Position numbers and translations under genes: made by a program. The notes beneath the pieces were generated by a model, which saw nothing but the letters and a program-made list of their open reading frames with translations, had not been told where the DNA came from and searched no databases. 55,664 bases of DNA from Pseudomonadota bacterium (GTDB taxonomy: Bacteria > Pseudomonadota > Gammaproteobacteria > Competibacterales > Competibacteraceae): positions 1 through 55,664 of the forward strand of contig JAFEGB010000293.1 in NCBI GenBank assembly GCA_018240295.1, written 5' to 3'. Numbering within the stretch: position 1 is the stretch's first letter; every line of letters begins with the position of its first letter. Positions 42,709 through 55,370 of this stretch are shown one piece after another.

Positions 42709-42912
42709 TCAGACGGCCTTCACCGAAGTCGCCTGAGGACCCTTCTGTCCTTCCTTCGATTCGAACTCCACCTTCTGGCCTTCGGCCAGGGTGCGGAAAC
42801 CCTTGCCTTCGATCGCAGAGTAGTGGACGAACACATCGCCCGTGCCGTCCGACGGAGCGATGAATCCGAAGCCCTTGGCCTCATCGAACCACTTAACCGT
42901 ACCAGTCTTCAT
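42709..42912 (-). CDS. Cold-shock domain protein (CspA family), upstream copy
   Basis: This 67-residue cold-shock domain starts [19 protein letters not shown] with RNP1 KGFGFI and RNP2 VFVHY. It ends [10 protein letters not shown]. The start at 42912 is the only sensible one, since the frame continues upstream as an antisense shadow of hrpA. It heads a two-gene csp unit read leftward, with the second copy 14 bp downstream. The 5' region to 43176 would be its leader. Confidence 0.92.
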
Positions 42913-43176
42913 AGAATGCGAAACCTCGGAAAAACCATCTGGCGCGCCGCCGGCAGTCGCGGGTGACGATGCATTTTCAATGGGAGATCGAGAATGGATC
43001 GGGACGGGCGGCCTGGGCGGCGCGGTATTCGATCCGGCGACGCTTATCGTTTGCGTCTTGAGGCCGGACCCGAGCTGGACACTACGCCAAAGGCTCAAGG
43101 CCTGCAAGCCAATTTCACGATTCGACGATGACCATCCCGCAAGGTTGCCGTGCGCGTGGCAAGCGCCGGTTTTGCT
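42913..43176. promoter_or_regulatory. Divergent csp/hrpA intergenic region
   Basis: This 264-bp spacer serves both the leftward csp pair and rightward hrpA. For csp, a long leader would fit the cold-shock 5' regions known in CspA genes. TTTTGCTATGCT at about 43170-43181 resembles an extended -10 for hrpA and would place its start codon later (GTG 43216). No classical cold box or strong pair was found by eye. Confidence 0.35.
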
Positions 43177-46100
43177 ATGCTGCACGGCCGTTTGCCGCCT
43201 GCTCCACCCCCCGCCGTGCCCGATCCGCTTCGCGCCCTCGCCGGGCTGCTGCCGCAGTGCCTCGCTGTCGATCGCGAGGATTTCCGCCGTCGCCTCGATC
43301 GCCTCGAACGCCGTCGTGACGATGGCCGGGCGCACGAGCGCGGCCTCGCCGAACTGATCACGGCGATGGAAGCCTCGCATGCGCGGCTGCTCGAACGTCG
43401 CGCGCGCCTGCCGCTGCCGGCCTTTGACGATGCCCTGCCGGTCAACCAGCGTCGCGAAGACATCGCGGCGCTGATCCGTGCGCACCAGGTCGTCGTCGTC
43501 TGCGGCGAGACCGGTTCGGGCAAGACCACGCAGCTGCCGAAGATCTGCCTCGAACTCGGCTTCGGGGCGGCCGGGCTGATCGGTCACACGCAGCCGCGCC
43601 GGATCGCCGCACGCTCGGTCGCCGCGCGCATCGCCGACGAACTCGGGGCCGGCGCGGCAGCGGCGGTGGGCTACAAGGTGCGTTTTTCGGATCGCACCGG
43701 GCCGCAGGCCGCGATCAAGCTGATGACCGACGGCATCCTGCTCGCCGAAACCCAGGGCGATCCGCTGCTGTCGGCCTACGAGGTGCTGATCGTCGACGAG
43801 GCGCACGAGCGCAGCCTCAACATCGATTTCCTGCTCGGCTACCTGAAACGCCTGCTGCCGCGGCGGCCGGATCTGAAGCTCGTCATCACCTCGGCGACCA
43901 TCGACCCGCAGCGCTTCGCGCGGCATTTCGACGATGCGCCGGTCATCGAGGTATCCGGGCGCACGTATCCGGTCGAGCAGCGCTGGCGGCCGCTGATCGG
44001 CGAGGACGAGGACGCGCGCGATCGCGACCTGCAGCAGGCGATCCTCGACGCCGTCGACGAGGTCTGGGCCGAGGGGCCGGGCGACGTGCTGGTGTTCCTG
44101 TCCGGCGAGCGCGAGATCCGCGAGACCGCCGAGGCCTTGCGCAAGCACCATCCGCCCGGCGTCGAGATCGTGCCGCTGTACGCGCGGCTGTCGGCCGCCG
44201 AGCAGAACCGCGTGTTCGAGGCGCACGGCCGGTCGCGCATCGTGCTCGCGACCAACGTCGCCGAGACCTCGCTGACCGTGCCCGGCATCCGCTACGTGAT
44301 CGATCCGGGCACGGCGCGCATCTCGCGCTACAGCTACCGCGCCAAGATCCAGCGCCTGCCGGTCGAGAAGATCTCGCAGGCGAGCGCCCGCCAGCGCGCC
44401 GGGCGCTGCGGGCGCGTCGAGGCCGGCGTCTGCCTGCGCCTGTATTCGGCCGAGGATTTTGCCGCGCGCCCGGCGTTCACCGATCCGGAGATCCTGCGCA
44501 CCAACCTCGCCGCCGTGATCCTGCAGATGGCGGCGCTGAACCTCGGGGACCCGGCTGCGTTTCCGTTCGTCGAGCCGCCGGATTCGCGGCTGATCCACGA
44601 CGGCTACAAGCTGCTGCACGAACTGCAGGCGGTCGACGAGCGCCACCGGCTGACCGCGCTCGGGCGCGAACTGGCGAAGCTGCCGATCGACCCGCGGCTC
44701 GGGCGCATGATCCTCGCGGCGCGCGATGAGGGCTGTCTTGCCGAGGTGCTGGTGATCGCGGCCGGTCTGGCGATCCAGGACCCGCGCGAGCGCCCGCTCG
44801 AAGTGCAGCAGGCCGCCGACCAGCAGCACCGGCGCTTCCGTGACGAGCGGTCCGATTTCCTCGCGCTGCTGCGGCTCTGGGACTGGTGGCAGGCGCAGGG
44901 CCGGCGCCTGAGCAAGAGCAAGCTGCGTGAACTCGCGAAGGCGTCCTTCCTTTCCTATGTGCGCATGCGCGAATGGCGTGAGCTGCACGGCCAGCTGGTC
45001 GAGGTGCTGGCCACGCTCGGCGCGGTGCAGAACGAACGCGAACCGGCCCCGCCGCCGCCCGAGCCGAATCAGAAGCGCGAGGACGGCGACTCCCTCTGGC
45101 CGGCCAACGAAGTCCCTATCCACCGTGCGCTGCTCGCCGGCCTGCTCGGCCACACCGGCCTGCGTCAGCAGGAGGGCAGCGAGTTCCTCGGCGCGCGTGG
45201 CCGGCGCTTCCGCATCTGGCCGGGATCGGGCCTGACGAAGAAGCCGCCGCGCTGGCTGATGGCTGCCGAGCTGGTCGAGACCACGCAGGTCTGGGCGCGC
45301 ACCTGCGCGCGCATCCAGCCGGAATGGCTGGAGACGCTGGCCGCGCACCTGATCAAGCGCGCGTACAGCGAGCCGCACTGGGAGAAGCGCGCCGCGCAGG
45401 TGGCGGCGACCGAGCGCGTGACGCTGTACGGCCTGCCGGTCGTCACCGGCCGCAAGGTCAACTACGGGCCGATCGATCCGCCGCTCGCGCGCGAGCTGTT
45501 CATCCGCCACGCGCTGGTCAACGGCGAGTTCGACTGCCGCGCGCCGTTCGTCGCCCACAACGCCGCGCTGATCGCCGAAATCGCCCGCATCGAGGACAAG
45601 GCGCGCCGGCGCGACGTGCTGGTCGACGAGGAGGCAATCTTCCGCTTCTACGATGCGCGCGTGCCCGAGCGGGTATGGTCGGGGGCGGCCTTCCTGAAGT
45701 GGCTGAAGGCCGCCGGGCGTGAGGATCCGCAACTGCTGTTCCTGAGCCGCGAGACGCTGATGGCACACGCGGCCGAGCAGGTCACCGATGCGCGTTTTCC
45801 GGATCGGCTCGTGCTCGCCGGCATCGAGTTTCCGCTCGCCTACCGCTTCGAGCCGGGTGCGGCCGACGACGGCGTGACGCTGACCGTGCCGCTCGCCGCG
45901 CTCAACCAGGTGCCGGCGGCGCGCTGCGAATGGCTGGTGCCGGGGCTGCTGCCCGAGCGGCTGGCGGCGCTGCTGAAGACATTGCCGAAGGATCTGCGCC
46001 GGCGTGTGGTGCCGGTGCCGGATACCGTCGAAAAGCTGCTGCCCGAACTCGACGCGCACGCCGATGCGGAGGCGCCGCTGCTGCCGGCGCTGGTCGCGGC

Positions 46101-47295
46101 GCTGCGCCGGCTCACCGCCAGCGAGTTCCCGGAGGATGCCTTCGATCCGGCTGCGATACCGGCGCATCTGGGCATGAACTTCCGCGTCGTCGCGCCCGAT
46201 GGCGCCGTGCTCGCCGAGGGCCGTGACCTGCGCCGGCTGCGCGCGCAGTTCGGTGATGCGGCGCGCGAGGCCTTCGGCACGCTGGCGAGCGCCTTCCGGG
46301 CCGCGGCCGACAAGGCGAGGACACCGCTGCGCGCGCGCGGCGAACCGGTCATTCCGGCATTGCCGGCACCGGCGCCGAAGCCGGCGATGCCGGCCGAGGA
46401 CCCGGTCGCGCGCCTGGAGCGCGCCGAGGTCCACGACTGGGACTTCGGGGCGCTGGCACAGACCATCGAGTTCGTGCGCAACGGCATCGTGCTGAAGGGC
46501 TGGCCGGCGCTGGTCGTCGAAGGTGAGAGACTCGCCGTGCGCGTGCTCGATACCGAAGCGCGCGCGGCGGCCGCCCACCGCCACGGCCTGCACCGGCTGA
46601 TCAGCCTGCGCCTGCGCGAGCCGGTCAAGTACCTGCGCCGCAACCTGCCGGGGCTCGCGCAGATGGGTTTGCACTACGTGGCGGTCGGCACCCAAGAACA
46701 GCTGCGCGACGATCTGCTCGCCGCGGCGATCGATCGCGCCTTTCTGGTGCCGGCGCTTGCCGGCGGCGGGCTGCCGCGCGATCGGGCGGGCTTCGAGGCC
46801 ATGCTGGAGCGCGGCCGGGCGCAGTTCGTCGGCTGCGCGAACGAGGTCTGCGCGCAGGTCGGGCAGGCGCTCGCGAGCTTCCACGCCGTACGCCGGCGCA
46901 TCAGCGGCCAGGTGCCGCTCGCGTGGATGGAAGCGGCGAAAGACATGCACGAGCAGCTCGACGCGCTGGTCTACCCCGGCTTCGTCAGCGCGACGCCGCC
47001 CGAATGGCTGCGCCGGCTGCCGGTATACCTGAAGGCGCTGGAGCTGCGCGTCGAGCGTCTCGGCGGCCGGCTGGAGCAGGACCGCCAGCGCAGCGCCGAG
47101 GTGCAGCGGCTGTGGCGCTGGTATCTGCAGCGGCGCGCCCAGCTCGCGCGCCGCGGTGCCGACGACCCGGAGCTCGAACGCTACCGCTGGATGCTGGAGG
47201 AACTGCGCGTGTCGCTGTTCGCGCAGGAGCTGAAGACGCTGTTTCCGGTGTCGGTGAAGCGCATCGAGGAGCAGGGCGCGAAGGTCCGCGTCTGA
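43177..47295 (+). CDS. hrpA: ATP-dependent RNA helicase HrpA
   Basis: This DEAH-box helicase is 1372 residues from ATG 43177. Walker A is GETGSGKTT (110-118) and the DEAH box is at 207-210 (VDEAHERSL). [19 protein letters not shown] and [12 protein letters not shown] (motifs III, IV and VI) follow. Then come the ratchet and OB-like regions and the HrpA-specific C-terminal half containing DUF3418. The size matches HrpA rather than HrpB. HrpA resolves stalled or collided ribosomes and mRNA structures. The start is uncertain: GTG 43150 and GTG 43216 are alternatives. It ends 10 bp before the convergent oxidase gene. Confidence 0.93.
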
Positions 47296-48699: not shown

Positions 48700-49626
48700 T
48701 CAGGCGCCGTCGTCGCTGACCACGCGGTTGCGGCCGCCGGACTTGGCGCGGTACAGACGGCGGTCGATGCGGGTGAGGAAGTCGGCCGGGTCATCGAGGC
48801 GGTCGGGCCGGATGGCACCGCAGCCGATGCTGACCGTCACCGGCAGGCGCAGGCCGTCGTCGGTGGCGCGGTACTGGCCTTGCAGCCGCGCGGCGATGCC
48901 CTCGCGCAGCTTGTCGACGACGCAGTGCACGCCGGCGGCTTCGGTTTCCGGCAGCAGCAGCGCGAATTCCTCGCCGCCGACCCGCGCGATCAGGTCGCCG
49001 GGGCGGCGCATGGCTTCGCGCCCGAGCGCGGCGATGCGGCGCAGGCAGTCATCGCCGGCGCCGTGGCCGCAGCGGTCGTTGAACAGCTTGAAGTGATCGG
49101 CATCGATCAGCGCCAGCCCGAGCGGACAGCCGGTGCGCAGCGCCCGCCGCCATTCGCGGTGGTAGTGCTGGTCGAAGCAGCGGCGGTTGGCGATGCCGGT
49201 CAGGCCGTCCATCAGCGCCAGCTGCTGCAGCAGCTGCGTCTGGCGCCGCAGGGTCACGTGGGTGCGCAGCCGGGCACGCACCACCGGCAGTGCGAACGGC
49301 CGCATGATGTAGTCGACCGCGCCGAGGCTGAAGCCCTTGATCTGCGACTCGACGTCATCGACGCCGGTCATGAAGATCAGTGGCAGCTCGCGGCCGAATT
49401 CGGTGTCCTTCAGGCGCCGGCAGACCTCGAAGCCATCGACCTCGGGCATGTCGACATCGAGGATCACCAGATCCAGCCGCGGGCTGTGGCCCACGATCTC
49501 GACCACCTCCCGCCAGTGCTTGGCGAACAGCAGTTCGAACTCGTCGCCGAGCCCTTCGGCCAGCAGCACGTGGTTGAACGGGTCATCGTCGATGACCAGG
49601 ATGTGCGGCATCTCGGGGCTGCTCAT
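48700..49626 (-). CDS. Response-regulator diguanylate cyclase (REC-GGDEF)
   Basis: This 308-residue protein makes c-di-GMP under control of a receiver domain. The REC domain has HILVIDDDPFNHV with phospho-acceptor Asp57 (VILDVDMPE), and FMTGVDD with KGFSLGAVDYIMRPF. The GGDEF domain has the active site GGEEF (217-221) and the inhibitory I-site RPGD (208-211) exactly five residues before it. It ends DRRLYRAKSGGRNRV. It starts 3 bp after the stop of the PAS-GGDEF-EAL gene, so it is the last gene of that transcript. A cognate histidine kinase is not in this window. Confidence 0.94.
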   Translation of the reverse strand: MSSPEMPHILVIDDDPFNHVLLAEGLGDEFELLFAKHWREVVEIVGHSPRLDLVILDVDMPEVDGFEVCRRLKDTEFGRELPLIFMTGVDDVESQIKGFSLGAVDYIMRPFALPVVRARLRTHVTLRRQTQLLQQLALMDGLTGIANRRCFDQHYHREWRRALRTGCPLGLALIDADHFKLFNDRCGHGAGDDCLRRIAALGREAMRRPGDLIARVGGEEFALLLPETEAAGVHCVVDKLREGIAARLQGQYRATDDGLRLPVTVSIGCGAIRPDRLDDPADFLTRIDRRLYRAKSGGRNRVVSDDGA

Positions 49627-49629
49627 GGT

Positions 49630-51612
49630 TCAGCGTCCGGCGGCCGGCGTCGTGGCGTGGCGGCACAGCCAGTCGCAGGCTGCGGCCTCGGGCAGCGGTG
49701 GCGAGAAGCGGTAACCCTGCACCGCATCGCAGCCGTGCTCGATCAGGAAATCGAGCTGCTCGCTGGTTTCGACGCCTTCGGCGAGCACCGACAGGCCGAG
49801 GTTGTGCGCGAGCGCGATGACTGCGGCGGTGATCTGCATGTCGGCCGGATCGTGCGGGATGTCGAGCACGAAGCTGCGGTCGATCTTCAGCGTGTTGATC
49901 GGGAAGCGCTTCAGGTAGGCGAGCGAGGAATAGCCGGTGCCGAAGTCGTCGATCGCGAGGCTGACGCCGAGCCGGCGCAGGGCTTCGAGCTGCTGGGCGA
50001 CCGTGTCCGGGTTTTCCATCAGCGCGCTCTCGGTCAGTTCGAGTTCGAGATACCGCCCCGGCACGCCGGTCTCGTCGAGGATGGCCGCGAGCTGCGGCGC
50101 CAGCGCGTGCAGGCGCAGCTGCCGGGCCGACAGGTTCACGGCCATCGAGTGGATCGGCACGCCATCGGCCAGCCAGCGGCGCAGGCAGCGGCAGGCCTCG
50201 CGCAGCACCCATTCGCCGAGCGGCACGATCAGCCCGGTTTCCTCGGCGAGCGGGATGAAGTCGGACGGCGGCACCATCTTGCCGTCCGGCCGCCGCCAGC
50301 GCACCAGCGCCTCGACACCAAGTGCGGCCGGTTCGCCGAGCATGATCTGCGGCTGGTAGTACAGCACCAGCTCCCCGCGTTCGAGCGCACGGCGCAGGCG
50401 CGCCTCCAGCACCAGGCGCTCCTCGACGGCGCGCGTCATCGCCTCCAGATAGAAGCGCGCATTGCCGCGACCGTCCTCCTTGGCGCGATACAGCGCAGTG
50501 TCGGCACGCTGGATCAGCGCCCCGGCCTCGGCCCCGTCGGCCGGGTACAGGCTGATGCCGACGCTGGCACCGATCCAGACCTCGTGGCCGCCGCCGAGCA
50601 GGAAGGGCTGCTGCAGGGCTTCGATCAGCGTTTGCGCGACGCCGGCGGCACGCTCGGGTTCGGTGACCTCCTCAAGCACGACCACGAACTCGTCGCCGCC
50701 GAGGCGCGCGAGCAGGTCGGACTGGCGCAGCCGTTCGCGCAGCCGGCCGGCCGCCCGCACCAGCAGCTCGTCTCCGGCGGTGTGACCGAAGCTGTCATTG
50801 ACCAGCTTGAAGCGGTCGAGATCGAGAAACAGCACCGCCAGGCCGCCTCCGCTGCGCGCGGCGCGGCGCAGCGCCTGGTCGAGTTCGGCGATCAGCAGCA
50901 GCCGGTTCGGCAGTCCGGTCAGCGCGTCGTGGTGCGCGAGGTGTTCGAGATCGTGGGCGTTGCGGACCGCCGTGATGTCGGAGAACACGCCGACATAGCG
51001 GATGATCGTCTGGTCGGCATCGCGCACGGCGTTGATCGTCAGCCACTGCAGGTAGGGTTCACCGCTGCGCCGGCGATTGCGGATCTCGCCCTGCCAGTGC
51101 CCGCTCTGCTGCAGCGCGCGCCAGAAATCCAGATAGAACGCCCGGCCCTCGTAGCCGGACTGCAGCATGCGCATGTTGCGGCCGAGGACTTCGCCTTCCG
51201 CATAACCGGTGATGTTCGAGAATGCCGGGTTGACGGCGACCACCGTGCCCTCGGGGTCGCAGACGACGATGCCGTCCTGCGTGCTCGAATAGACCATCGC
51301 CGCCTGGCGCAGGCCGGCCTCGTTGCGCCGGCGCTCGGCAATCTCGGCTTCCAGTGCCTGCTTGGCGAGGCGCAGGTCGTGCGTGACGCGCTCGTTCTCG
51401 GCCAGCGTCGCCTCGAGCTCGAGCGTGCGCTCGCGCACGTGGTCTTCGAGCAGCGCGGCCGTGTGATACAGCGTGAAGCCGGACTCGGCGCTCTCCAGGC
51501 TGGTCGTCGATTTCTCGGCGCGCCGGATCAGCGCCGTCACCACCTTGCGCAGTCGCAGGACTTCCGCCTGCAGGGTCTCGAGGTCGTCCGGCAGGGGCAG
51601 GAGTTCATTCAT
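49630..51612 (-). CDS. PAS-GGDEF-EAL dual-domain c-di-GMP enzyme
   Basis: This 660-residue cytoplasmic protein begins with a coiled-coil region (about residues 10-100). A PAS domain follows (103-217; [26 protein letters not shown], and [19 protein letters not shown]). The GGDEF motif is intact at 305-309, with the I-site RQSD just before. EAL is intact at 434-436 (GVEALVRWR), with [17 protein letters not shown] and LKIDRSF conserved. Both halves look active, so net direction cannot be read from sequence. I chose ATG 51612; GTG 51615 is one codon earlier. The start overlaps the FIST gene end. Confidence 0.94.
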
Positions 51613-52747
51613 CACCGGACCTGCCGATCGCGACGCCGGTCAGCGTGTGATTGACATGCACGCCGGCGTACTGCTCGCCGTAGGTGCTGAACCCGACCAT
51701 GCGATAGCGCCGGAAGCGTTCGCCGAGCGCAGCCTCGCAGTGCTTGCGCCGGGCTTCGAGCCGGCGCAGCACGCAATCGAAGCTGATGACCAGATCCGGT
51801 TCGCCGATCCCGGCGCGGATGCTGTCCATCGACGAGTCGAGGTGAGCGACCATGTCGCGGGCCTGCGCGACGCGCAGCACCAGCCCGAGTTCGATCGCAC
51901 AGAAGAAGGTCAGGCTGCCGTCGGCGTGGGCCTCGCGGATCGAGCGCACGTAATCGGTGCCGTCGATGACCACGACCACCGGTGCGGCCGCGAAGGTCTC
52001 GGGGGCAAGTTCCGCCACCGGCACGCCGATCAGGCGGGCATATTCCTGCGCCGCCGGCAGGCCGTTCAGCTCGAACACCCGCCGGCGCTTCGGATCGGCC
52101 TCGGTGACCACCAGGCGTTCCTTGTCGTGGGTGAAGTGCTGGGTCTTGAACACCCGGCTGCGCCGGCGCGTGCTGACCAGTGCCAGCACGGCGCTGCGGG
52201 TGTGGAAGGCGCCATCGTGATAGACCCAGCTGCGGCCGAAGTGCAGACCGTCACCGGCCGAGCCGCCGACCAGCGGTGTGCGCCCGAGTGCGCGCTGCAG
52301 CGCATAGGCGACCGGTTCCTCGCGCTGCGCGAGGCCATCGACCAGCAGCAGGGCGAAGCGCTCCTGCCCGTCCGTCACCGCCGGCATCTGCGCGAGCAGG
52401 GCATCGACACAGTGCTGGCCGGCATCGAGGCTGACGTCGTCCAGACCGTCGAGCCGGGCGGTCGCCACCGTGAATTCTGCCGCCGGCAGGCTGAAGCCGG
52501 TGATGCCGCCGGTCTGGTAGCCGCTGGCGCCGAGTTCCCCGGCGGTCGTGCAGCCGATCATCGGCACGTCACCGAAATGATGCTGCAGGGCTTCGGCCAG
52601 CACCGGACGCGGATAGGCGGTCGAACAGAACACCACGACCAGCGCCGCATCGGGCTGACTGATCTGGGCATGCAGTTCGCGCACGGCCAGGCCGACCTCG
52701 CACGCCTGCGTGTGGCCGGTCAGGATGCGGGCGGAAGCGGATTCCAT
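51605..52747 (-). CDS. FIST-domain sensor protein
   Basis: This 380-residue soluble sensor has FIST N (about residues 40-230: [45 protein letters not shown], and [19 protein letters not shown]). FIST C follows (about 240-375: [26 protein letters not shown] through [22 protein letters not shown] in form). FIST domains bind small ligands and often act beside c-di-GMP or chemotaxis proteins. ATG 52747 has GAGGAG six bases upstream; upstream in-frame codons are poor. It heads a three-gene leftward unit and overlaps the next gene by 8 bp. Confidence 0.9.
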
Positions 52748-53522
52748 CGATGACTCCTCGGCGGTATTCACATGGCGGGGTCCTTCCTGCGCTTTCTGGT
52801 TTGCACCGGATTCCGGGCTGCTCCGGCGGGCGGCATTACAGGCCATTGGGGTTTTCCGGAAGGAATGTCGGAATTGCCGTAGCGACATTGATTGCTATTG
52901 CATTTGCATCATTTCGGTTTCTGAAGCGTTCCGGGTGCAGCAGCCCATCCGCCTGTCCATGTCAGAAACGGGCCTGCAGGGCCTTGTCGCGAGGTCTGTA
53001 CCGATACAGATGCCTGCAGGACGTACTGAGGCAACTGCTTGAACAGTATGCACTGAGCACGGCAATAATGGACAGAAGCTTGTGGTCATGGCCTTTGCAG
53101 CGGCGTTCATGGTCTGGATTGTGCGGTGCAAAATCGACAAGTCTTCGTGACGGCACGGTTGTCGGCGTAGGTGTCGGCGGTGGTGGTCGCGGCCGTTGAA
53201 GCGCGGAATTCCTCCGTAAGCAAGCCATATGCCATTGCCGTCAAGCACAGTTGAGCCGGTCTGCCTGCGCAATCATTGCAAGCCTTGCATATCGGCCCAG
53301 GTTCAATGGAATTAAGCGTTTGCTCTCGTTTCAGCAGGCAGTTTCACCAGCGCCCACATTTTTGCGGTGCGTCAATTAGCGCAGGCGAAGCGGTGCGTGC
53401 CGGGGGCAATTCGCGGTTTGCAACGCTCCTGCGCCCATGCCGGAACACATCGTGCGTCAGTCGTTGCAGTTCTGTACCGCTACGCTGTGACGGATCGAAT
53501 CCTCCCCGGACCTGCGCCCCGA
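52748..53522. other. Long intergenic region between the FIST operon and the ion-channel gene
   Basis: This 775-bp stretch is clearly less GC-rich than its flanks. No open frame in it resembles a protein (longest on either strand about 110-125 residues, no known motif). It contains the perfect palindrome TCTGTA-CCGA-TACAGA (52995-53010), the palindrome TGCAAG-C-CTTGCA (53277-53289), and two CCTGCAGG words. It should hold the promoters of the leftward FIST operon and of the rightward channel gene. It may also contain gene remnants. Confidence 0.5.
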
Positions 53523-55370
53523 ATGTCTCCGCTCCCTGGCTGTCGTCGTCTCATCGTCTTGTGCTGGCTGTGTGTATGTGCAGGGCTCGCCTCGTGGCCC
53601 CCCGGGGCCGTGGCTGAACTTCCTGCGGTGCAGGTCCTGAGCGGCCGGCTCGAAGCCGGGCAGAGCGTGCTGTTTGCACTGCCGGGACTGAAGGCCGGCA
53701 CGCAGCTGAGGTTTCGGGCCGAGGGCCTCGACGGCAGTCTCGATCCGCTGCTCGCGGTGCTGAAGCCGGGGCTCGATCTCGAGCGGGCGCGCATCGACTA
53801 CCGCGAGCGCTACCAGCGCTTGCGTGCCGGGCGCACCGAGGACCCGGCAGCCTACGCGGCGCTGCTCGACGAGTACGTGCTCGCGCAGGCCGACGACAGC
53901 GCCGGCGGTTATGCGGCCGATCTGGAGTTCACGGTGCCGGCCGACGGCGACTACCGGCTGCTGCTGAGCGCAAGTCCGCTGCGTCCGGGCTTCGGCGGCT
54001 ACCGGCTGACGATCGCCGGCGAGGAGGGAATCGCGGCGGTCAGCGTCCTGGCCGGTGTCTGGGGCGGCGATGCGCGCGTGCAGGCGACCGGACTCGCCTT
54101 CACCGGCGACGAACCCTGGCGCTATGTCGAGCTGCGGCCGGTGCAGGCCGGCGAGACGCTGCAGGTGCGGCTCGAAGCCGTCGACGGGGCGCCGCTGCCA
54201 CCGCAACTGCTGCTGCTCGACTACGGCGACAAACCGCTCGCCACCGCCAGCACCAGCACCGCTGCGCCGGCGCGACTGACGCTGACGCATGGGTTTCGCA
54301 GCGCCGACCCGGCACCGCGCCTGCGCGTCGCGCGTCCCGATGGCGCGAGCGGCGCGCAGTACCGGCTGCTGCTCGGCATCGACACCGCCGCGTTCGGCGA
54401 CGGTCCGGTCGAGCCGCTCGGCCGGCCGCTGCTGCAGGTGCCGATCGAGGTGCAGGTCGGCGTGCGCATGGACCAGATCACCGGCGTCGACCAGCGTGGC
54501 GAGAACTTCGGTGCCGTCGCCTCGCTGCGCATGGACTGGACCGACCCGGCACTGGCCTTCAATCCCGAGTCCTGCGGCTGCCGTCTGAAGACCTTCGGCG
54601 GCGACGCCTTCGCGCAGTACGTGCAGCAGCACGGCGCGCTGTGGCCGGAGTTCGTCGTGTTCAACCAGCAGGGCAACCGCTGGGCGCAGAAGCGCCTCGT
54701 CGTGCTGCGCCCGGACGGTTCCGCACAGTATTACGAGCGCTTCTCGACCACGCTGCAGGCACCGGATTTCGATTTCCGGCGTTTTCCGTTCGATACGCAG
54801 CGGTTTTTCATCCGTGTCGAACTGATCGCGCCGGAGTGGAAATTCCGCTTTGTCGAACTGCCCGACTACAGCGGTCTCGGCCGCCAGCTTGGCGAGGAGG
54901 AATGGGTCACGACCGGTTTCGACACCCGCATCAGCAGCGAGACCGAAACCACCGGCCTGCCGGTATCGCGGTTTTCCTACGGCTTCACGGCCGAGCGGCA
55001 CCTGAATTACTACGCGTACCGGATCTTCCTGCCGGTGCTGGTGATCATCGTCATCGCCTGGGTGACGCTGTTCCTGCGCGACTACGGCAAGCGCGTCGAG
55101 GTCGCCGGCGGCAACCTGCTGTTGTTCATCGCCTTCAACTTCACGATCTCCAGCGACCTGCCACGGCTCGGCTACCTGAGCTTCCTCGATACGCTGCTGC
55201 TCAGCGCCTTCGTCGTCACCGGCTGCATGTTCGTGCTCGCCGTGTACATGCGCAGACTGGAGGCCGGCGGGGCCAGCGCTGTGCTGCAGCGTATCGACGG
55301 CTGGGTGATCTGGCTGTATCCGCTGGCATACGTGCTCGGCATCGGCGCGATCGTGGCGTTCTACCGCTGA
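53523..55370 (+). CDS. Pentameric ligand-gated ion channel homologue (Cys-loop family) with extra N-terminal domains
   Basis: This 615-residue protein has a signal peptide (about 1-30). Two beta-rich domains follow, at about 35-175 (VLSGRLEAGQSVLFALPG; DLEFTVPADGDYRLLL, as in jelly-roll PPC domains) and about 176-310. The ligand-binding domain covers about 320-498, with the conserved FPFD loop (about 421-424). Four helices end the protein: M1 about 501-521 (IFLPVLVIIVIAWVTLFL), M2 about 531-551 (GGNLLLFIAFNFTISSDLP), M3 about 560-582 and M4 about 594-614. The order fits prokaryotic channels such as GLIC and DeCLIC. The Cys pair of eukaryotic receptors is absent, as usual. ATG 53523 is chosen; an in-frame GTG 53490 is an alternative. 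Confidence 0.85.
   Translation: MSPLPGCRRLIVLCWLCVCAGLASWPPGAVAELPAVQVLSGRLEAGQSVLFALPGLKAGTQLRFRAEGLDGSLDPLLAVLKPGLDLERARIDYRERYQRLRAGRTEDPAAYAALLDEYVLAQADDSAGGYAADLEFTVPADGDYRLLLSASPLRPGFGGYRLTIAGEEGIAAVSVLAGVWGGDARVQATGLAFTGDEPWRYVELRPVQAGETLQVRLEAVDGAPLPPQLLLLDYGDKPLATASTSTAAPARLTLTHGFRSADPAPRLRVARPDGASGAQYRLLLGIDTAAFGDGPVEPLGRPLLQVPIEVQVGVRMDQITGVDQRGENFGAVASLRMDWTDPALAFNPESCGCRLKTFGGDAFAQYVQQHGALWPEFVVFNQQGNRWAQKRLVVLRPDGSAQYYERFSTTLQAPDFDFRRFPFDTQRFFIRVELIAPEWKFRFVELPDYSGLGRQLGEEEWVTTGFDTRISSETETTGLPVSRFSYGFTAERHLNYYAYRIFLPVLVIIVIAWVTLFLRDYGKRVEVAGGNLLLFIAFNFTISSDLPRLGYLSFLDTLLLSAFVVTGCMFVLAVYMRRLEAGGASAVLQRIDGWVIWLYPLAYVLGIGAIVAFYR

Follow-up and report, generated by a model that had tools for sequence, protein, structure and literature searches.

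The window, i.e. the whole stretch of 55,664 nt that was analysed, belongs to a gammaproteobacterium of the Competibacteraceae (contig JAFEGB010000293.1) and contains a gene for a DeCLIC-type pentameric ligand-gated ion channel (pLGIC), which is transcribed divergently from three genes on the opposite strand. The features are as follows, with the evidence in parentheses:

48700–49626, − strand: response regulator-GGDEF protein, divergent neighbour (domain matches)
49630–51615, − strand: PAS-GGDEF-EAL protein, divergent neighbour (domain matches)
51605–52888, − strand: sensor protein with FIST N and FIST C, divergent neighbour (domain matches)
52889–53522, no strand: divergent intergenic region, no recognisable element (GC 0.574)
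53523–55370, + strand: DeCLIC-type pLGIC channel gene, 615 amino acids (ORF, Pfam, PDB sequence match, model)
53523–53615, + strand: predicted signal peptide, residues 1–31 (arginine pair, hydrophobic stretch and AxA, by eye)
53619–54026, + strand: NTD1, residues 33–168, jelly-roll with two inserted helices (model of the lobe alone)
53742–53744, + strand: D74, predicted Ca2+ site 1 ligand, DeCLIC D76 (alignment)
53892–53897, + strand: D124 and D125, predicted Ca2+ site 1 ligands, DeCLIC D123 and D124 (alignment)
54027–54422, + strand: NTD2, residues 169–300, duplicate of NTD1 without the site 1 acids (profile comparison)
54423–55001, + strand: canonical periplasmic ligand-binding domain, residues 301–493 (Pfam Neur_chan_LBD at 305–427, model strands)
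54501–54503, + strand: E327, predicted Ca2+ site 3 ligand, DeCLIC E347 (alignment)
54573–54581, + strand: C351-G-C353 pair (common to NTD-bearing relatives)
54762–54794, + strand: Pro-loop PDFDFRRFPFD, residues 414–424 (translation, alignment)
54894–54902, + strand: loop F E458-E459-E460, DeCLIC E479–E481, predicted Ca2+ site 4 (alignment)
55002–55067, + strand: M1 helix, residues 494–515 (model)
55080–55151, + strand: D520 and the M2 helix (521–543) with E526 (model, alignment)
55182–55265, + strand: M3 helix, residues 554–581 (model)
55275–55364, + strand: M4 helix, residues 585–614 (model)

The channel gene extends from an ATG at 53523 to a stop codon at 55368–55370 and encodes 615 residues, and the initial annotation had its extent right. 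Upstream of this ATG, the frame stays open as far as a GTG at 53367; with the ATG as start, however, the signal peptide sits where the relatives have theirs. Judged by eye, this peptide has a basic start, a hydrophobic stretch and an AVA end, with likely cleavage after GAVA-31; the structural model shows a helix at residues 7–23, followed by low confidence. The protein matches the Pfam family Neur_chan_LBD (PF02931) with an E-value of 3.9e-11 and 43.2 bits, which exceeds the cut-off of 26. The FPFD loop from which a ligand-gated channel had been proposed is present at residues 421–424 within the Pro-loop, and F418, P422 and D424 are invariant across the alignment.

For the structure prediction, AlphaFold2 received the window protein aligned to 20 relatives, and single chains were modelled. 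In the model (mean pLDDT 79.7, pTM 0.59), two beta blocks precede the ligand-binding domain, which is followed by four helices, i.e. the M1–M4 that the annotation had claimed. The ligand-binding domain starts at about residue 301, in agreement with the approximately 290 residues in two beta-rich blocks that had been described ahead of it. Among PDB sequences, DeCLIC (6v4a) was the best full-length match (phmmer E-value 1.1e-115, residues 18–607), while sTeLIC matched residues 305–607 only (3e-96) and GLIC residues 301–580 (about 1e-25). The structure search gave the same order: all of the first 20 Foldseek ranks were occupied by DeCLIC chains (E-values 1.4e-60 to 2.5e-42), and sTeLIC came next. 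In the VIA comparison, which covered the top 1000 Foldseek chains, the model aligned with 6v4a over 561 residues with a Z-score of 31.5 and an rmsd of 13.9, the latter explained by a different hinging of the lobes. The part that follows NTD1 (NTD2-ECD-TMD) matched 9ev7_C with a Z-score of 31.3 and an rmsd of 3.9. Structure prediction and comparison with DeCLIC, proposed at the outset as a check, thus returned the pLGIC fold with DeCLIC as the top match, and sequence, predicted structure and structure search agree on a pentameric ligand-gated channel of the DeCLIC plan with two added N-terminal domains.

The window protein has the same order as DeCLIC of a Desulfofustis deltaproteobacterium (6v4a, 6v4s, 7q3g, 9ev8, 9fth), i.e. 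signal-NTD1-NTD2-ECD-TMD, and shares with it the Ca2+ side-chain ligands, the EEE of loop F, the CxC pair and the acids at the inner pore mouth. It differs from DeCLIC in the overall sequence (about 36% identity), in having A127 in place of G126, and in its position on a separate branch of long forms. With sTeLIC (6fl9, 9ex6, 9ewa) it shares 48% identity over ECD and TMD, a very similar M2, the loop-F sequence QLGEEEW and a glutamate at the position of DeCLIC E347, whereas the solved chain of sTeLIC has neither N-terminal domains nor the CxC pair. GLIC (e.g. 3eam) has the pLGIC fold in common (Z-score about 26), but the identity is 24% over ECD and TMD only, and its solved chain is devoid of N-terminal domains. 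The DeCLIC type is already structurally solved and rare, and the window channel adds one distant long form to it.

According to the available excerpts of PMC12664993, DeCLIC is the sole pLGIC with a partly characterised N-terminal domain, and its lobes are largely homologous by structure. For the window family, a comparison of the NTD1 and NTD2 profiles gave a probability of 98.7% and an E-value of 1.9e-16, while the controls, in which each of the two lobe profiles was compared with that of the ligand-binding domain and the NTD1 profile also with that of the membrane domain, yielded 0.1–0.7%. By this profile comparison, the two lobes are diverged duplicates. The NTD2 residues that align with the site 1 acids are non-acidic in the window protein, and therefore Ca2+ site 1 is assigned to NTD1 alone.

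When NTD1 was modelled alone (pLDDT 89.8), its closest match among the top 1000 Foldseek chains was NTD1 of DeCLIC, with a Z-score of 16.2, 131 aligned residues and an rmsd of 2.1. The next matches, with Z-scores of 10–11, were the collagen-binding domain of a collagenase, Tk-SP, GOLD and PliG domains; the DeCLIC authors likewise name Tk-SP, a collagen-binding domain and PliG as look-alikes of the lobe (PMC12664993, excerpts). NTD1 shares the jelly-roll of PPC and collagen-binding domains (PF04151; Z-scores of 11.0 for 1nqj and 9.8 for 5sv5), but it differs from them by two inserted helices, and its score against the Pfam PPC family, 19.2 bits, is below the curated cut-off of 25.9. At E-values up to 1, PPC matches were obtained for 12 of the 21 NTD1 rows (best value 0.002) and for none of the 21 NTD2 rows. 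Membership of the lobes in the PPC family was therefore rejected, as the fold agrees but the sequence score remains under the cut-off. Apart from DeCLIC entries, neither lobe profile found a PDB sequence below an E-value of 0.6.

These resemblances would be compatible with lobes that bind a periplasmic or cell-wall polymer or protein, so that the channel would be gated by, or tethered to, a partner and Ca2+ would act as a cofactor. The similarity of NTD1 to the collagen-binding domain 1nqj (91 aligned residues, rmsd 2.3), to Tk-SP (3afg, Z-score 10.8) and to the lysozyme inhibitor PliG (4dzg, Z-score 10.3) points in this direction, as do the PPC matches, of which that of the window protein is below the cut-off. 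However, the jelly-roll fold serves many functions, including those of GOLD and calpain domains, NTD2 is devoid of PPC matches, and the fetched flanks contain no conserved partner gene. We thus regard a partner-binding role of the lobes as quite improbable.

In the excerpts of PMC12664993, four sites are described for DeCLIC, i.e. site 1 with D76, D123 and D124, site 2 with the backbone of D124, G126 and G128, site 3 with E347 and the backbone of P434, F436 and L477, and site 4 with E480 and the backbone of Q476 and G478. In the alignment, the equivalents in the window protein are D74, D124 and D125 (site 1), D125, A127 and G129 (site 2), E327, P414, F416 and L456 (site 3), and E459, Q455 and G457 (site 4). 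Every side-chain ligand named for DeCLIC in these excerpts is identical in the window protein, and the sole difference among the aligned residues is the replacement of DeCLIC G126 by A127 in site 2, which is coordinated by the backbone.

To quantify the conservation, 23 full-length rows were compared (the window protein, DeCLIC, the channel of the congener, L028, and 20 loci). The site 1 positions are acidic in 23 (D74), 23 (D124) and 21 (D125) of them, and the runners-up among the 20 acidic residues of the window NTD1 are E106 with 19 and D143 with 18. The site 1 ligands are thus the three most conserved of the 20 acids, for which a calculation by hand gives a chance of 1 in 1140 if the relatedness of the rows is ignored. 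The Ca2+ site of NTD1 is the most conserved acidic feature of the lobe, and this speaks for a functional role and against a peculiarity of a single structure. In the ligand-binding domain, E327 is acidic in 21 of the 23 rows and E458–E460 in all of them. Within the DeCLIC clade, the position of DeCLIC E347 is occupied by glutamate in 28 of 30 rows, and that of E480 is acidic in all 29 rows that have a letter there, while the only two GLIC-like rows with letters at these positions (L029 and L030) lack both acids.

All 23 rows have an acid at the positions of D520 and E526, which lie at the inner end of M2; a further locus outside this set (L024) has a glycine at the position of E526. For DeCLIC, cation selectivity has been tied to two rings of acids at the cytoplasmic mouth (PMC9897478, excerpts), and we read D520 and E526 as probably equivalent to these rings.

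The fold, the domain order and the conservation of the Ca2+ side chains and of the two acids D520 and E526 are established here, while the pentameric state, the inhibition by Ca2+ and the cation selectivity are inferred from DeCLIC. The conserved Ca2+ side chains make a Ca2+-stabilised and Ca2+-inhibited cation channel the most likely function, and we consider it probable that the window protein is a DeCLIC-type homopentameric cation channel that Ca2+ stabilises in the closed state. The subunit would be exported; its two jelly-roll lobes and canonical ligand-binding domain would lie in the periplasm, and its four helices would span the membrane. The closed pore would be stabilised by Ca2+ coordinated in NTD1 by D74, D124 and D125 and, at the interface between subunits, by E327 and E458–E460 (loop F) of the ligand-binding domain. 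A drop in periplasmic Ca2+ would loosen the lobes, and the interface site would admit monovalent cations; the pore would then open and the cell would be depolarised. For DeCLIC, the excerpts of PMC9897478 propose a side entrance for sodium that is blocked by Ca2+. The initial statement that the ligands of such long forms are mostly unknown is outdated in part, as Ca2+ inhibits DeCLIC and the window protein keeps the residues that coordinate it there. With intact Ca2+ side chains, this second and distant long-form channel is a natural case in which to test how general Ca2+ control through the lobes is.

Several observations count against the Ca2+-inhibited reading, i.e. the identity to DeCLIC of about 36%, the change to A127 in site 2, the glycine of L024 at the E526 position, and the presence of the same ECD acids in the short sTeLIC, which is alkaline-gated according to PDB titles. 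Ca2+ at the conserved sites may have a structural role only, and the DeCLIC authors state in the excerpts of PMC9897478 that their data do not decide between a functional and a structural interface site. The opener could be something other than Ca2+ removal, for instance a small amine or acid, protons or alkaline pH; the role of the Ca2+ sites would then just be to keep the lobes and the interface together. This is in line with the closeness of ECD and TMD to sTeLIC (48% identity, Z-score 29.1), whose PDB titles refer to gating at alkaline pH and to a complex with 4-bromophenethylamine, with PDB titles that report both open and closed DeCLIC structures at pH 5, and with the description of the gating conditions of DeCLIC as open questions (PMC12664993, excerpts). 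In contrast, DeCLIC, the nearest full-length relative, conducts upon Ca2+ depletion in oocytes according to the same excerpts, and the window protein retains its full set of Ca2+ side chains. We consider a different opener unlikely and favour the Ca2+-stabilised closed channel.

C351-G-C353 comes immediately after a conserved WxDPxLAF segment of the ligand-binding domain. The CxC pair is present in 27 of the 28 rows that show N-terminal-domain sequence (the exception is L007) and in none of the three short members of the DeCLIC clade, i.e. the solved chain of sTeLIC, L034 and L048; these counts come from related rows and from few short channels, one of which, sTeLIC, is represented by its solved chain. 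L025 has no CxC and was not counted, as its contig begins inside the ligand-binding domain. The nine GLIC-like rows of the tree have no CxC at this position, and the CxC-bearing channels span several bacterial phyla and archaea. The main texts of two DeCLIC papers (PMC12664993, PMC9897478) mention neither cysteines nor disulfides, and the papers listed by a literature search on pLGICs and a CXC motif did not contain the term 'cxc motif'. The pair might form a redox- or metal-responsive switch of the ligand-binding domain that acts together with the lobes, a reading that we regard as doubtful. If it were true, the channels would read, besides Ca2+, a transition metal or the redox state of the periplasm.

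Jaiteh et al. 2016 (PMC4795631) surveyed the distribution of pLGICs; the term 'n-terminal' does not occur in the available part of that text. Our genome scan identified 26 related loci, which record titles assign to Chloroflexota, Nitrospiraceae, a gammaproteobacterium, euryarchaeal lineages and Desulfobacterota-type taxa (Syntrophales, Desulfobacca, Desulfuromonadales, Desulfobulbaceae). Within the phylum of the window genome, the long form was present in 2 of 59 relatives, i.e. the genome itself and the congener G001 (54%), and in 1 of 398 genomes of the phylum and 1 of 369 of the class, both times the own genome; these three samples share genomes, and the own genome is part of each. The long form had been called rare, and this holds within the genome samples searched. 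Short sTeLIC-like relatives were found in the phylum sample (G317) and in the class sample (G618), and wider looks around them revealed no others in 249 and 3 genomes, respectively. The relative in G618 (L039/L048, G618:C195:6641-7556) is a short DeCLIC-clade channel gene that is split over two overlapping frames, due either to a sequencing or assembly error or to decay of the gene.

In a tree of 39 rows, a DeCLIC/sTeLIC clade of 30 rows that includes the window protein is separated from nine GLIC-like rows (100/100). The window protein pairs with L028 (100/99), and the Desulfobacterota-type L001 and L002 come next with weak support (94/76). sTeLIC and L034 branch outside the long forms, again weakly (80/75), and a descent of sTeLIC from within the long forms by loss of the lobes is thus unsupported. 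The channel gene is rare in its own phylum and its nearest kin are in other phyla, which suggests lateral transfer. A mobile or viral origin was rejected, as tblastn searches yielded no match in 72,556 plasmid records or in 50,697 phage records, and a pattern scan of viral_contigs gave no confirmed relative. One Chloroflexi MAG (isolate Ww555) encodes two different long-form channels, L019 and L020, on separate branches of the tree.

The intergenic region upstream of the channel gene has a GC content of 0.574, compared to 0.701 for the whole window, and is the deepest of six dips. The low GC content noted initially is thus real, but the special control it was taken to hint at is unsupported. 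Rfam gave no match at the gathering score in the whole window and none at E-values up to 1 in 52700–53700. The region contains one weak promoter-like site (0.2 expected), one terminator-like site (1.0 expected) and one two-copy repeat of 16 nt, and inverted repeats are absent. The best match to the corresponding DNA of the congener comprises 17 bases and is insignificant (E-value 0.14). Special control by this region was rejected on the basis of these results.

The initial annotation also proposed a search of the neighbours for ligand-producing enzymes. An all-against-all comparison of 996 flank ORFs detected no widely shared neighbour family, and, apart from those formed by the channel and its overlapping shadow frames, the largest clusters comprise 5–6 loci; the flank lengths vary, some being near zero. 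A conserved partner gene was rejected on this basis, and no ligand-producing enzyme is kept across the family in the fetched flanks. The divergent FIST, PAS-GGDEF-EAL and REC-GGDEF genes could form a c-di-GMP signalling unit of which the channel would be one half. The channel of G001 is also divergent from a CHASE-PAS-GAF-GGDEF gene (L033:10955-13921), and the two neighbourhoods are otherwise without synteny in the stretches compared. However, there are 52 GGDEF matches per genome, an estimate by hand indicates that about 3% of places have a GGDEF within 2.6 kb on a given side, the test was post hoc, and a GGDEF profile found none in the fetched flanks, many of them short, of the 26 other loci. 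A c-di-GMP unit is thus very unlikely, and the link between the genes is a lead only. Elsewhere in the window, an open frame of 1413 codons on the − strand (42712–46950) has a cold-shock domain that is confined to its final 64 residues; it is likely that most of this frame, which lies in high-GC DNA ahead of a small cold-shock gene, is a shadow frame.
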